A DNA stretch of 16,320 nucleotides from positions 1 through 16,320 of the forward strand of contig JALXDW010000319.1 in assembly GCA_027070385.1 (NCBI GenBank). Reading direction: 5' to 3'. The notes under the pieces are model-generated. The model saw only the letters and a list, made by a program, of their open reading frames with translations. It had not been told where the DNA came from and did not search any database. The DNA comes from Chromatiales bacterium (GTDB lineage: Bacteria; Pseudomonadota; Gammaproteobacteria; UBA6429; Thiohalophilaceae). The stretch's first letter is position 1. Each line of letters begins with the position of its first letter. Below, in pieces: positions 12,352 through 14,591 of the stretch. A program made the position numbers and the translations under genes.

Positions 12352-12373
12352 TTCAAGTTTATTGTTTGTGCGT

Positions 12374-12430
12374 TTATTCCTACAGAAAAATCAGCAACGT
12401 CCTACACGAAACTGTATTGAAGTTTATAAC
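12374..12430 (+). promoter_or_regulatory. candidate comEA control region with two TCCTACA boxes
   Basis: TTATTCCTACA (12374-12384) and GTCCTACA (12399-12406) form a direct repeat with 22 nt between equivalent bases. TATAAC (12425-12430) matches five of six -10 bases and lies 18 nt after the second box, so CCTACA sits where a -35 would be. The same pair of boxes occurs upstream of fimT at 13874-13907. No known operator is claimed; this is a pattern seen in the sequence with inferred function. Confidence 0.5.
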
Positions 12431-12503
12431 AAATACCGTACAATTTGATTTGCTCATTTGAGTACATGGATGTTTTATCTTACAATTTAAAAGGAACTTA
12501 ACA

Positions 12504-12782
12504 ATGAAAAAATCATTTCAAATACTTTCACTTGTATTTTTATTTGCATTCTCATCTTTGGGGTATGCAGGGGCAGTCAATATTAATACAGCAGATGCAA
12601 AAACCATTGCGAAGAATCTGAAAGGGGTCGGTTTAAAAAAAGCACAAGCAATTGTCATCTATCGCAAAAAGCACGGTGCATTTAAGACTGTAGAAAGTTT
12701 AGCCAAAGTAAAAGGCATTGGCTTTAAAACGGTTGAGAAAAATCGTGCAAATATTTCGATTGTGATGATAAAAGGTAAATAA
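12504..12782 (+). CDS. comEA: ComEA-like helix-hairpin-helix DNA-binding protein
   Basis: Small secreted DNA-binding protein; in competent Gram-negative bacteria ComEA binds incoming double-stranded DNA in the periplasm and ratchets it through the outer membrane. The signal peptide (about 1-22) has Lys2-Lys3, a hydrophobic core and probable cleavage after GYA. The mature part opens with the family phrase VNINTA (25-30) and has two helix-hairpin-helix units, LKGVGLKKA and VKGIGFKTV. The length of 92 aa is typical of the minimal form. AAGGA at 12491-12495 lies 8 nt before the ATG. It is a single-gene unit, closed by a strong terminator at 12828. Similar HhH exports not involved in competence exist, so the role is inferred, helped by the shared promoter motif with fimT. 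Confidence 0.88.
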   Translation: MKKSFQILSLVFLFAFSSLGYAGAVNINTADAKTIAKNLKGVGLKKAQAIVIYRKKHGAFKTVESLAKVKGIGFKTVEKNRANISIVMIKGK

Positions 12783-12827
12783 CAGCCATAAACATACAAT
12801 AAAAATTCAAACAGGTTGTAATGAATT

Positions 12828-12851
12828 GGGCGCATTATTGCGCCCTTTTTT
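12828..12851 (+). terminator. Rho-independent terminator after comEA
   Basis: GGGCGCA (12828-12834) pairs with TGCGCCC (12839-12845) around a TTAT loop, followed directly by six T residues (12846-12851). It lies 45 nt after the comEA stop. Confidence 0.92.
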
Positions 12852-12859
12852 GTTATAAT
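12851..12859 (+). promoter_or_regulatory. extended -10 promoter for galU
   Basis: TGTTATAAT carries a perfect TATAAT (12854-12859) with the TGn extension, directly joined to the T-run of the comEA terminator. No good -35 is present, as extended -10 promoters allow. Transcription would begin near 12866, giving a leader of about 55 nt before the galU ATG at 12921. Confidence 0.75.
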
Positions 12860-12920
12860 GGCGAAGTGCTTGTTAATAGCCATTACGCAACAATTTTTTG
12901 TACTAGCAAGAGCAATAAAA

Positions 12921-13802
12921 ATGAAAAAAATCAGAAAAGTGGTCTTTCCTGTGGCAGGTTTAGGAACCCGTTTCTTGCCAGCAACCAAGGCCAGCCCTAA
13001 AGAAATGTTACCGGTGGTGGATAAACCCCTTATCCAATATGCGGTGGAAGAAGCGATAGCAGCCGGTATGGAACAAATGATTTTTGTTACCGGGCGCACA
13101 AAGAATTCCATTATGGATCATTTTGACAAAGCCTATGAACTGGAAGCGGAGCTTGAAGCCAAACAGAAAATGGCCATGCTGGAATTGGTTCAGAGTATTT
13201 TGCCTGCCCATATTTCCTGTGTGTATATACGTCAGTCAGAAGCTCTAGGGTTAGGGCATGCGGTACTTTGTGCTTTACCGGCAGTTGAAAATGAACCGTT
13301 CGCTGTCATATTGGCTGATGATCTTATTGATGGGGGAGAGCATGCTTGTCTGGCCCAAATGGTTGAACAATATGAACGTTACAGCTCAAGTATTTTAGGA
13401 GTAGAGCAAGTACAGCAAGATGAAACCGATAAATACGGGATTGTAGACTCGGTGCCGCTCGAAAAAAATATTCACCGTATAGATGGGATTGTTGAAAAGC
13501 CTGCACCAGCGGATGCGCCTTCAACTTTGGCAGTGGTTGGACGCTATATTTTAACACCCGAAATTTTTGATATGCTCAAGAAAACTGAGCAGGGTGCGGG
13601 GGGCGAAATTCAGTTGACCGATGCGATTGCCATGTTGTTAAAGAAAAAACAGATCCTGGCCTATGAATTCAGTGGTAATCGCTATGATTGTGGGAGCAAG
13701 CTGGGTTATTTACAAGCAACCGTCGAGTATGCCTTAAAGCACCCGGAATTAAAGCATTCATTTAAGCGTTATTTAGCCGATTTAGATCTGGATGCGGTTT
13801 AG
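12921..13802 (+). CDS. galU: UTP-glucose-1-phosphate uridylyltransferase
   Basis: Makes UDP-glucose from UTP and glucose-1-phosphate for lipopolysaccharide, capsule and other glycans, in the cytoplasm. The N-terminus [14 protein letters not shown] (10-23) with PKEMLP (26-31) is the GalU nucleotide-binding signature. LADD places Asp133 and Asp134 at the sugar-nucleotide site, VEKP is at 191-194, and GGEIQLTDA and YDCGSKLGY mark the C-terminal half. From 12921 the length is 293 aa, normal for GalU. The in-frame ATG at 12858 was rejected because it overlaps the TATAAT box and adds 21 residues that are not family-like. AAGAG at 12908-12912 precedes the start. It is a single-gene unit, with no strong terminator found after the stop. 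Confidence 0.97.
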
Positions 13803-13873
13803 TCATTGCCAGTTTAGTGGTGTATTTCATAATAATAATTTTGGACTGATTCTAGTTTTTATAAAACGTAAGC

Positions 13874-13934
13874 TTATTCCTACATAAACTGTCTACATTG
13901 TCCTACATACATTTGTTTTGATATTCGATATTGT
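13874..13934 (+). promoter_or_regulatory. candidate fimT control region with two TCCTACA boxes
   Basis: TTATTCCTACA (13874-13884) and GTCCTACA (13900-13907) repeat the arrangement found before comEA, with 23 nt between equivalent bases instead of 22. A variant GTCTACA (13891-13897) lies between them. Possible -10 sequences GATATT (13927-13932) or TATTGT (13929-13934) follow at roughly the right distance. A second option, TATAAA at 13860-13865, would place the boxes just inside the transcript. The shared motif is seen directly; its role is inferred. Confidence 0.5.
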
Positions 13935-13964
13935 ATCAACCTTACAAGGATGTGGGGGGATGAC

Positions 13965-14591
13965 ATGGATGTCAACACACACCGGAAAGGCAGCCAGGAT
14001 GGCTGTCTTCCCTTTTATTTTAAATATCATTCGTTATCAAAATTAAATCCTCAGATAGGTTTAACACTGCTTGAACTGGTGTTTTCAATTGCCATTATTA
14101 GTGTGCTTGGAGTGAGTATGTCTACTGTTTCAGCATCGTTTATTGGCAGTAATAAAATTGCCAATGCAGTGAATAGAATTGCTGCTGATATGGCTTTTGC
14201 TCGTTCAGAGGCTGTGATGCGAGGTGAGCATGTTGAGCTTTGTAAATCTCTGGATGGCCTAACCTGTAGCCGCCGCAAGCAGTGGGAAAGTGGTTGGATA
14301 ATTTTTGTGGATAAAAACCATAATCGTAAACGTGAAGTTATGGAGCCCCTTTTGAAATATCAAGCTGAAATCAGTTCGATTAATATCACTTATCGGGGGT
14401 CGGGCAGTTCACATTACATTCGGTTTCGTGCAGATGGTGCCAGTGGTACAAACGGAACCTTTGCTTTTTGTAGTGATAAGGCGGGGCGCTATAAACGGGC
14501 TTTAATCTTATTTCGCACTGGTCGCTTGCGGCTTAGTCAAACCCGTTCTGGGGGACGTGCCATTTCGTGTGCAGATTTTCGTACACATTAA
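13965..14591 (+). CDS. fimT: GspH/FimT-family type IV minor pseudopilin with DNA-binding motif
   Basis: Type IV minor pilin of the FimT family, which in Legionella and relatives binds DNA at the pilus tip during natural transformation. The prepilin peptidase site is G32-LTLLEL with Glu37 at +5, followed by a hydrophobic helix (about 33-55). The C-terminus has GRLR (186-189), matching the GRxR DNA-binding motif reported for FimT. Two Cys pairs (CKSLDGLTC, and one in FCSD with the late ISC) may form disulfides. The leader of 32 residues is long and there is no later in-frame start. ATG at 13950 was rejected because AAGG abuts it; ATG 13965 follows a G-rich stretch. Other minor pilin genes are not adjacent. 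A terminator-like hairpin lies in the leader codons. Family is firm, role inferred. Confidence 0.85.
   Translation: MDVNTHRKGSQDGCLPFYFKYHSLSKLNPQIGLTLLELVFSIAIISVLGVSMSTVSASFIGSNKIANAVNRIAADMAFARSEAVMRGEHVELCKSLDGLTCSRRKQWESGWIIFVDKNHNRKREVMEPLLKYQAEISSINITYRGSGSSHYIRFRADGASGTNGTFAFCSDKAGRYKRALILFRTGRLRLSQTRSGGRAISCADFRTH
13984..14021 (+). promoter_or_regulatory. terminator-like hairpin within the fimT leader codons
   Basis: Left arm 13984-13996 and right arm 14000-14011 form CAGCCA/TGGCTG with a GGA loop, one G-U pair, further A-T and G-C pairs, one bulged A and two closing G-C pairs. TTTTATTTT (14013-14021) follows after one more C. It would look like an intrinsic terminator in a non-coding region, but it lies 20 nt inside the reading frame. 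Attenuation of fimT is a possible reading. Confidence 0.55.

Follow-up and report, generated by a model that had tools for sequence, protein, structure and literature searches.

Tandem sites of probable GacA/UvrY type upstream of comEA and fimT in an uncultivated gammaproteobacterial family

Two pairs of the word TCCTACA were found in a 16,320-nt stretch of DNA from a Chromatiales bacterium (contig JALXDW010000319.1 of assembly GCA_027070385.1, hereafter the window), one pair upstream of the DNA-uptake gene comEA and the other upstream of the pilin gene fimT. Judging from their sequence and conservation, the pairs are very probably tandem GacA/UvrY/LetA-type sites that would place both genes under a Gac/Rsm feed-forward circuit. 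The motif, its spacing, its conservation, a leader RNA before fimT and, in most genomes of the family, the regulators themselves were observed. The initial annotation of the window had noticed the pairs and ascribed them to a dedicated competence or type IV pilus regulon; that assignment was not supported, as the motif, the spacing and the other genes carrying it point to a GacA/UvrY box.

Paired TCCTACA words in the window

Both strands of the window were scanned and exactly four copies of TCCTACA were present, all on the + strand (12378, 12400, 13878 and 13901), so that the two pairs account for every copy, as initially claimed. Shuffled windows contained a mean of 1.22 copies and reached four in 5 of 200 cases. 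The copies lie within the longer words TTATTCCTACA (12374-12384 and 13874-13884) and GTCCTACA (12399-12406 and 13900-13907), for which the positions and the 25 and 26 nt between starts given in the initial annotation were correct. From start to start, the TCCTACA words themselves are separated by 22 bp at comEA and by 23 bp at fimT. For TCCTACA-N15/16-TCCTACA, two matches were observed against 0.00013 expected per window, a post hoc estimate from base frequencies. Matches to TIGR00426/HHH_3 and to PF12019 confirmed the identity of the downstream genes, and galU, situated between them, indeed lacked the motif, its best match to the inverted repeat described below having five mismatches.

The genome of the window (G000) is a 2.46 Mb draft in 530 contigs, 83% complete. 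The pattern TCCTACAN{5,35}TCCTACA matched this genome only at the comEA and fimT sites, and the reversed control gave 0 matches. With the exact pair confined to these two places, no further pil, com, dprA or comF gene was seen with it in G000. The boxes and the genes behind them are as follows.

12367..12384, + strand: comEA box 1, TGTGCG-N6-CCTACA, two mismatches to TGTMRGN6CYKACA; the left half is TGTAGG or TGTAAG in many relatives
12389..12406, + strand: comEA box 2, AATCAG-N6-CCTACA, 22 bp after box 1, right half strong and left half weak; TCAG of the left half is retained in many relatives
12417..12444, + strand: candidate sigma-70 promoter of comEA, TTGAAG-N16-TACAAT, 9/12 match; the number of such sites in the window equals the chance expectation
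12504..12782, + strand: comEA, TIGR00426 over cut-off, HHH_3
13867..13884, + strand: fimT box 1, CGTAAG-N6-CCTACA, one mismatch to the inverted repeat
13890..13907, + strand: fimT box 2, TGTCTA-N6-CCTACA, 23 bp after box 1
13929..13934, + strand: candidate -10 element of fimT, TATTGT, 21 bp after box 2, suggested by a reading of relatives
13965..14591, + strand: fimT, minor pilin with a GspH domain (GspH/FimT, PF12019); the longest open reading frame starts at 13950

An activator-like placement had been expected, and it was borne out at fimT, where box 2 ends 21 bp upstream of the plausible -10 element and occupies the expected -35 position. The corresponding gap is 32 bp at comEA, a difference of about one DNA turn.

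Conservation of the pair and of an inverted repeat

The comparison set consisted of 96 genomes, 40 from the family of the window (f1, G000 included) and 56 from other families of the class. The pattern TCCTACAN{10,25}TCCTACA gave 30 matches, and the spacer was N15 or N16 in 18/19 matches within the family compared to 0/11 outside it. The genes behind the 18 spaced family pairs were comEA (6), fimT (7 rows, two of them from one three-box promoter), a csrA paralogue that passed the Pfam CsrA cut-off (1), small proteins of the form MDYVRTLGG..DRYFHVMNQGWYA (2, DUF6316-like by eye) and a GGA-rich RNA ending in a T-run terminator (2 rows from one triple-box promoter). This comparison refuted the reading of the window's boxes as two chance word pairs, which is vanishingly improbable: although single repeats are at background level in G000, the spacing, position and downstream gene are conserved across the 40-genome family, and galU and the outgroups are negative.

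In relatives, a second half was seen upstream of TCCTACA, for example TGTAGGACCCGTCCTACA or TGTAAGACAAATCCTACA. In each box, TCCTACA supplies the better-matching half of an 18-bp inverted repeat, TGTMRG-N6-CYTACA, the other half of which is degenerate in the window. Upstream regions were scored by the best match to TGTMRGN6CYKACA in the 250 bp before each gene. Within the family, the repeat was exact in 16/29 comEA regions and had at most one mismatch in 23/29 (shuffles, 0.7%), while 13/26 fimT regions and 0/15 galU regions carried it, the fimT regions with at most one mismatch. For the comEA loci of 30 other families (n = 30), 28 showed at least three mismatches, one had a single mismatch and one, in G074 of family f36, was exact. 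An operator-like element is thus kept before the comEA and fimT orthologues and is absent from galU, as had been anticipated. Since the counting pattern was drawn partly from the very sequences scored, the galU and outgroup controls matter for these figures.

The comEA count covers 29 of 30 loci, L034 having no upstream DNA; a 31st comEA match, in G004, falls outside the locus set, and its box is visible in L100. The galU count covers 15 of 30 loci, the others being dropped where the start was not in the locus or less than 200 bp lay upstream. The fimT count omits the other, distant pilins of L087-L090, and in genus g14, where the RNA module described below is doubled, part of the fimT boxes fall outside the 250 bp scored. 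Exact TGTMRGN6CYTACA was counted in nine family genomes, with 83 matches against 20 in the reversed control (palindromes counted on both strands). Some exact repeats inside genes (e.g. L101, L223, L230 and L236) look like chance.

Identity of the repeat

The 22-bp period had suggested direct repeats of the LytTR type (ComE/AgrA-like). LytTR operators are imperfect direct repeats without inverted symmetry, and for the LytTR regulators ComE and AgrA, too, the direct repeats have a period of about 21-22 bp. This candidate was set aside when left half-sites appeared in relatives, as the half-sites form inverted repeats, exact in the 16/29 comEA regions mentioned above. A competence-only regulon was also dropped, because csrA paralogues, DUF6316-type genes and GGA-rich RNAs follow the box. 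That the boxes are the operator of some other LuxR/NarL- or LytTR-type regulator of competence or pili, with a GacA-like site, is unlikely. The family does contain several UvrY-like paralogues (31-38% identity); however, the half-sites form N6 inverted repeats, which is the GacA geometry, they share the csrB/csrC spacing, and a competence regulator would leave the motif before the csrA paralogue and the Csr/Rsm-like RNAs unexplained.

The GacA box and the Gac/Rsm circuit are already known. For UvrY, the consensus TGTAAGNNNNNNCTTACA and the site TGTAAGN6CTTACA are given (Zere et al. 2015, PMC4682653), with the csrB repeat TGTGAGAGATCTCTTACA accompanied by an additional half-site TGTAGGAGA and, at csrC, a TGTAAG half placed 16 bp ahead of the repeat (PMC4682653). 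In Escherichia coli K-12 DNA, the half-sites were 23 bp (csrB) and 22 bp (csrC) apart, which are the spacings at fimT and comEA. The E. coli UvrY (SirA) sites therefore share with those of the window an 18-bp inverted repeat and an extra half-site at 23/22 bp, but have CTTACA where CCTACA is preferred here.

GacA is described as acting mainly via small RNA (sRNA) genes in E. coli and Salmonella, and the same is cited for rsmY/rsmZ of Pseudomonas aeruginosa (PMC4682653); few direct protein-gene targets are known according to the excerpts (PMC8523701, PMC12724241). The sequence TGTAAGN6CTTACA is called the GacA box, and TGTAGGGGAATTCTTACA lies before csrA1 of Marinomonas mediterranea (PMC8523701). 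There, as here, a GacA box with a TGTAGG half immediately precedes a protein-coding gene of the Gac/Rsm circuit, but the gene is csrA, reported as repressed, and the excerpt names no DNA-uptake gene (PMC8523701). The Gac-box of Dickeya oryzae vfmE is likewise a direct non-sRNA target of a GacA homologue, although vfmE is a quorum-sensing regulator gene and not one of DNA uptake (cited in PMC12724241). Direct GacA boxes at DNA-uptake genes were not met in the openly licensed literature searched, nor was an Rsm-like RNA that makes up the beginning of fimT.

Homologues of UvrY were found at E<=1e-50 in 32/40 family genomes, with 39-56% identity. The one tested, from G002, passed NF007018 (UvrY/SirA/GacA) with 282.7 bits (cut-off 280). 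The UvrY recognition helix LSPKTVNSYR reads LSPKT[VI]STYR in 29/30 aligned relatives and ISPKTVSTYR in the remaining one. A csrA gene was present in 35/40 family genomes, and the repeat precedes a csrA paralogue in G018. GGA-rich RNAs behind the repeat were seen in G004, G021, G012 and G020, those of G004, G021 and G020 with a T-run terminator as judged from sequence.

A leader RNA with CsrA-type sites

Between the fimT boxes and fimT lies a leader RNA with a CsrA-type site, which the initial annotation had overlooked. The consensus of CsrA sites is RUACARGGAUGU. With at most one mismatch, it was matched on the + strand of the window at 12462, 13942 and 15874, the last being antisense within an aminotransferase gene. 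The leader features of both genes are given below.

12462..12473, + strand: near-consensus CsrA site GTACATGGATGT in the comEA leader, one mismatch to RUACARGGAUGU
12491..12495, + strand: AAGGA, Shine-Dalgarno-like stretch of comEA (putative), also a GGA
13940..13957, + strand: RNA hairpin 1, CCUUACA-AGGA-UGUGGGG, containing the CsrA-type site UUACAAGGAUGU at 13942-13953
13961..13974, + strand: RNA hairpin 2, UGACA-UGGA-UGUCA, containing the in-frame fimT start ATG at 13965
13987..14009, + strand: RNA hairpin 3, AAGGCAGCCA-GGA-UGGCUGUCUU then CCCUUUUAUUUU, terminator-like

About 17 nt separate the comEA site from the AAGGA Shine-Dalgarno stretch downstream of it, and at fimT one of the CsrA-type hairpins overlaps the start codon, most likely the ATG at 13965. 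Folding of 13938-14016 gave three hairpins, each with GGA in its loop; 3/200 shuffles were as stable (z -2.5). Three terminator-like sites, including the one at 13987-14009, were found in the window against 1.3 expected.

An RNA model of the leader, R1, matched with at least 44 bits in 26/40 family genomes and at E<=0.001 in 35/40, some of the latter matches being weak and at least two doubtful. Among 369 genomes of the class, eight matched at E<=1e-6: four of f1, three of f36 and one weak match elsewhere, leaving f36 as the only other family with strong matches. When the 26 strong loci were read, the repeat was found in the 110 bp upstream with at most two mismatches in 26/26 and at most one in 20/26 (shuffles, 3.1% and 0.3%), two of the loci holding only 79 and 82 bp upstream. 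Four weak loci, L267-L270, stand outside the 26: L267 and L269 have an exact repeat without fimT, and L268 (apparently a tRNA) and L270 are probably false matches. A further 24/54 R1 matches had no locus and are outside the loci read. The distance from the last box to the RNA was 41-42 or 50-52 bp, never between, in 20/27 loci with an intact last box, and these two distances are one DNA turn apart.

A wider contig scan used GTGGGGGGN{1,3}GACANGGANGTC, with the first hairpin loop not required. It gave 49 matches in 48 stretches, of which 29 extend upstream as ACANGGAN. GacA-type half-sites were present within 110 bp upstream in 29/29 of these and in 0/20 of the rest. The records of the 29 are labelled Chromatiales, Ectothiorhodospiraceae, Ca. 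Tenderia, Gammaproteobacteria, Proteobacteria or Pseudomonadota, and several of these genomes also figure in the family search.

The ATG of hairpin 2 was in the pilin frame, and the frame open, in 10/15 loci with an ATG and a pilin motif, so that one and the same stretch is a conserved RNA and the start of the coding sequence. The remaining 5/15 loci are first modules of genus g14, each followed by a second module, and in L074 of this genus an in-frame start was read in the second module. This tandem doubling of the module before fimT was seen in L074 and L076 and, by reading, also in L077, L078, L080, L081, L083 and L085 of g14. The module also stands without a fimT match in the next 900 bp in G010, G024, G012, G020 and a second copy of G003, and it precedes a csrA paralogue in G013. 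Clear T-runs follow the RNA in G216 (f36) and G020, and weak ones in most other copies picked by pattern.

These copies without fimT could mean that the boxes on the fimT side belong to a free-standing Rsm-type sRNA, with a link to fimT that is one of position. The T6 run after the last hairpin in G020 and the terminator-like hairpin 3 of the window would also fit. We consider this doubtful, as the ATG of hairpin 2 opens the fimT frame in the 10/15 loci and at comEA the same boxes and a CsrA-type site are present with no terminator-like hairpin ahead of the gene. Like RsmX/Y/Z and CsrB/C, the leader is a short RNA behind a Gac-type box with GGA hairpin loops and a terminator-like last hairpin; unlike them, it forms the 5' end of the fimT message, holds its start codon and scores below the Rfam thresholds. 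A tentative possibility is that the 5' end of fimT acts as a dual-function RNA, at once an Rsm-type CsrA sponge and a regulated pilin leader whose start codon lies in a CsrA hairpin. The module might then have passed from one role to another, as free sRNA, leader of fimT or leader of csrA, and DNA uptake could be both target and tuner of the Gac/Rsm switch.

Observations that weigh against GacA control

A number of observations speak against placing the boxes and leaders in a Gac/Rsm circuit. The left half-sites are degenerate in the window, and single repeats are not enriched in G000 (exact, 3 vs 5 in the control; at most one mismatch, 31 vs 51 in the control per strand). No clear gacA was found in the G000 draft (best match 35% identity) and csrA was not found in this incomplete assembly; the incomplete draft of G003, from the same genus, likewise yielded neither, and G001 and G002 have both. 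No BarA match over the NF008318 cut-off was obtained in the 40 family genomes, 39 of which match at E<=1e-60; hybrid kinases are common. All four family comEA loci with at least three mismatches belong to genus g12 (G014, G025, G030 and G034), which has gacA yet lacks the box at comEA (4/4) and at fimT (2/2 regions read, G025 and G030), although loss at both is expected if one regulator is shared by the two promoters. The boxes lie near -40/-50 of protein genes, whereas the E. coli csrB/csrC sites are at -191/-190 and -168 from the annotated sRNA start. GacA of P. aeruginosa gave a different motif in chromatin immunoprecipitation sequencing (PMC6610081, excerpt).

For the RNAs, the comEA leader and the G004 RNA of L233 fold no better than shuffles. 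ACA.GGA and GGA were invariant in 36 aligned copies of the fimT-type leader, picked by a pattern that already required much of the GGA core. Stem covariation is weak: in five genus g1 sequences, one pair of hairpin 3 is changed on both sides, which 162/500 shuffles also reach, and for hairpins 1 and 2 covariation fails as proof because they are nearly invariant. No Rfam Csr/Rsm family matched over threshold, the best being RsmY with 10.8 bits against 57. In G013, the repeat upstream of the csrA paralogue is a weak one and is misplaced.

Proposed control of comEA and fimT

With GacA/UvrY-type boxes as the preferred reading, the two 18-bp inverted repeats, 22 or 23 bp and hence two DNA turns apart, would be bound by phosphorylated GacA immediately upstream of the two promoters. 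From tandem boxes ending about 35-45 bp before the start, it would activate comEA and fimT. CsrA, bound to the leader sites (ACANGGANGU; in hairpin loops at fimT), is predicted to block ribosome entry and, when free, to keep both genes silent until titrated by GacA-driven GGA RNAs. A single regulator would then raise transcription and lift the translational block of the uptake genes, forming a coherent feed-forward loop. In Acinetobacter baylyi, a csrA truncation lowered stationary-phase competence by more than 1,000-fold (PMC12442408, excerpt), so that CsrA action there does not have the simple sign assumed in this model.

The FimT product binds DNA during uptake in Legionella, and its DNA-binding motif is GRxR (PMC8897410, excerpt). 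The tail of FimT in the window carries TGRLR, which matches this motif and agrees with the reading of the gene as fimT.

A link between the Gac system and transformation is known from mutants of Legionella pneumophila LetA/LetS, in which inactivation of letA cut transformation by more than 500-fold; the mechanism was left open there, upstream of RocC/RocR, and no direct box at an uptake gene is described in the excerpt (PMC7811196). If the sites act as proposed, direct boxes at comEA and fimT would explain how the Gac system can switch natural transformation, with DNA uptake wired straight into a general lifestyle switch of the gamma-proteobacteria. An uncultivated lineage would gain a testable model of competence control, and a short RNA with copies that occur by themselves, upstream of a pilin gene or upstream of a csrA paralogue.

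Other genes and RNAs behind GacA-type repeats

At G004 C6:73442 (L233) and G021 C3:2017411 (L234), GGA-rich RNAs lie behind exact or tandem GacA-type repeats. The same arrangement at G021 C3:1526432 (L240) and G004 C2:306811 (L021) was accompanied by stem-loops and T7 runs. The L240 RNA folds better than shuffles (5/200 as good). These four RNAs are candidate rsm genes of the lineage.

Repeats of this type also precede small genes that are DUF6316 or, by eye, DUF6316-like at G002 C70:264567-265726 (L227) and G000 C188:1906 (L238) and in G015 (L110), G018 (L106) and G019 (L095). Of five such genes compared with the Pfam model, two were over the cut-off (G000 and G015), one was just below and two had no match. 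In G002, an exact repeat lies before a small DUF6316-type gene that directly precedes gacA.

In genus g1, a repeat was found between a small gene with the motif GMKC.GC, which has a heavy-metal-binding look, and a divergent open frame (L108, L231 and L315 from G002, G003 and G000; in G000 with one mismatch). TGTAGG/TGTCAG repeats precede proline-/glycine-rich lipoprotein-like genes, in more than one copy per genome (L096 and L107 in G003, L222 in G002). A repeat also lies beside a gene that by eye resembles dihydrofolate reductase (L103 in G000 and L226 in G002), and L103 additionally encodes a small protein with RRSSERR/DRR repeats.

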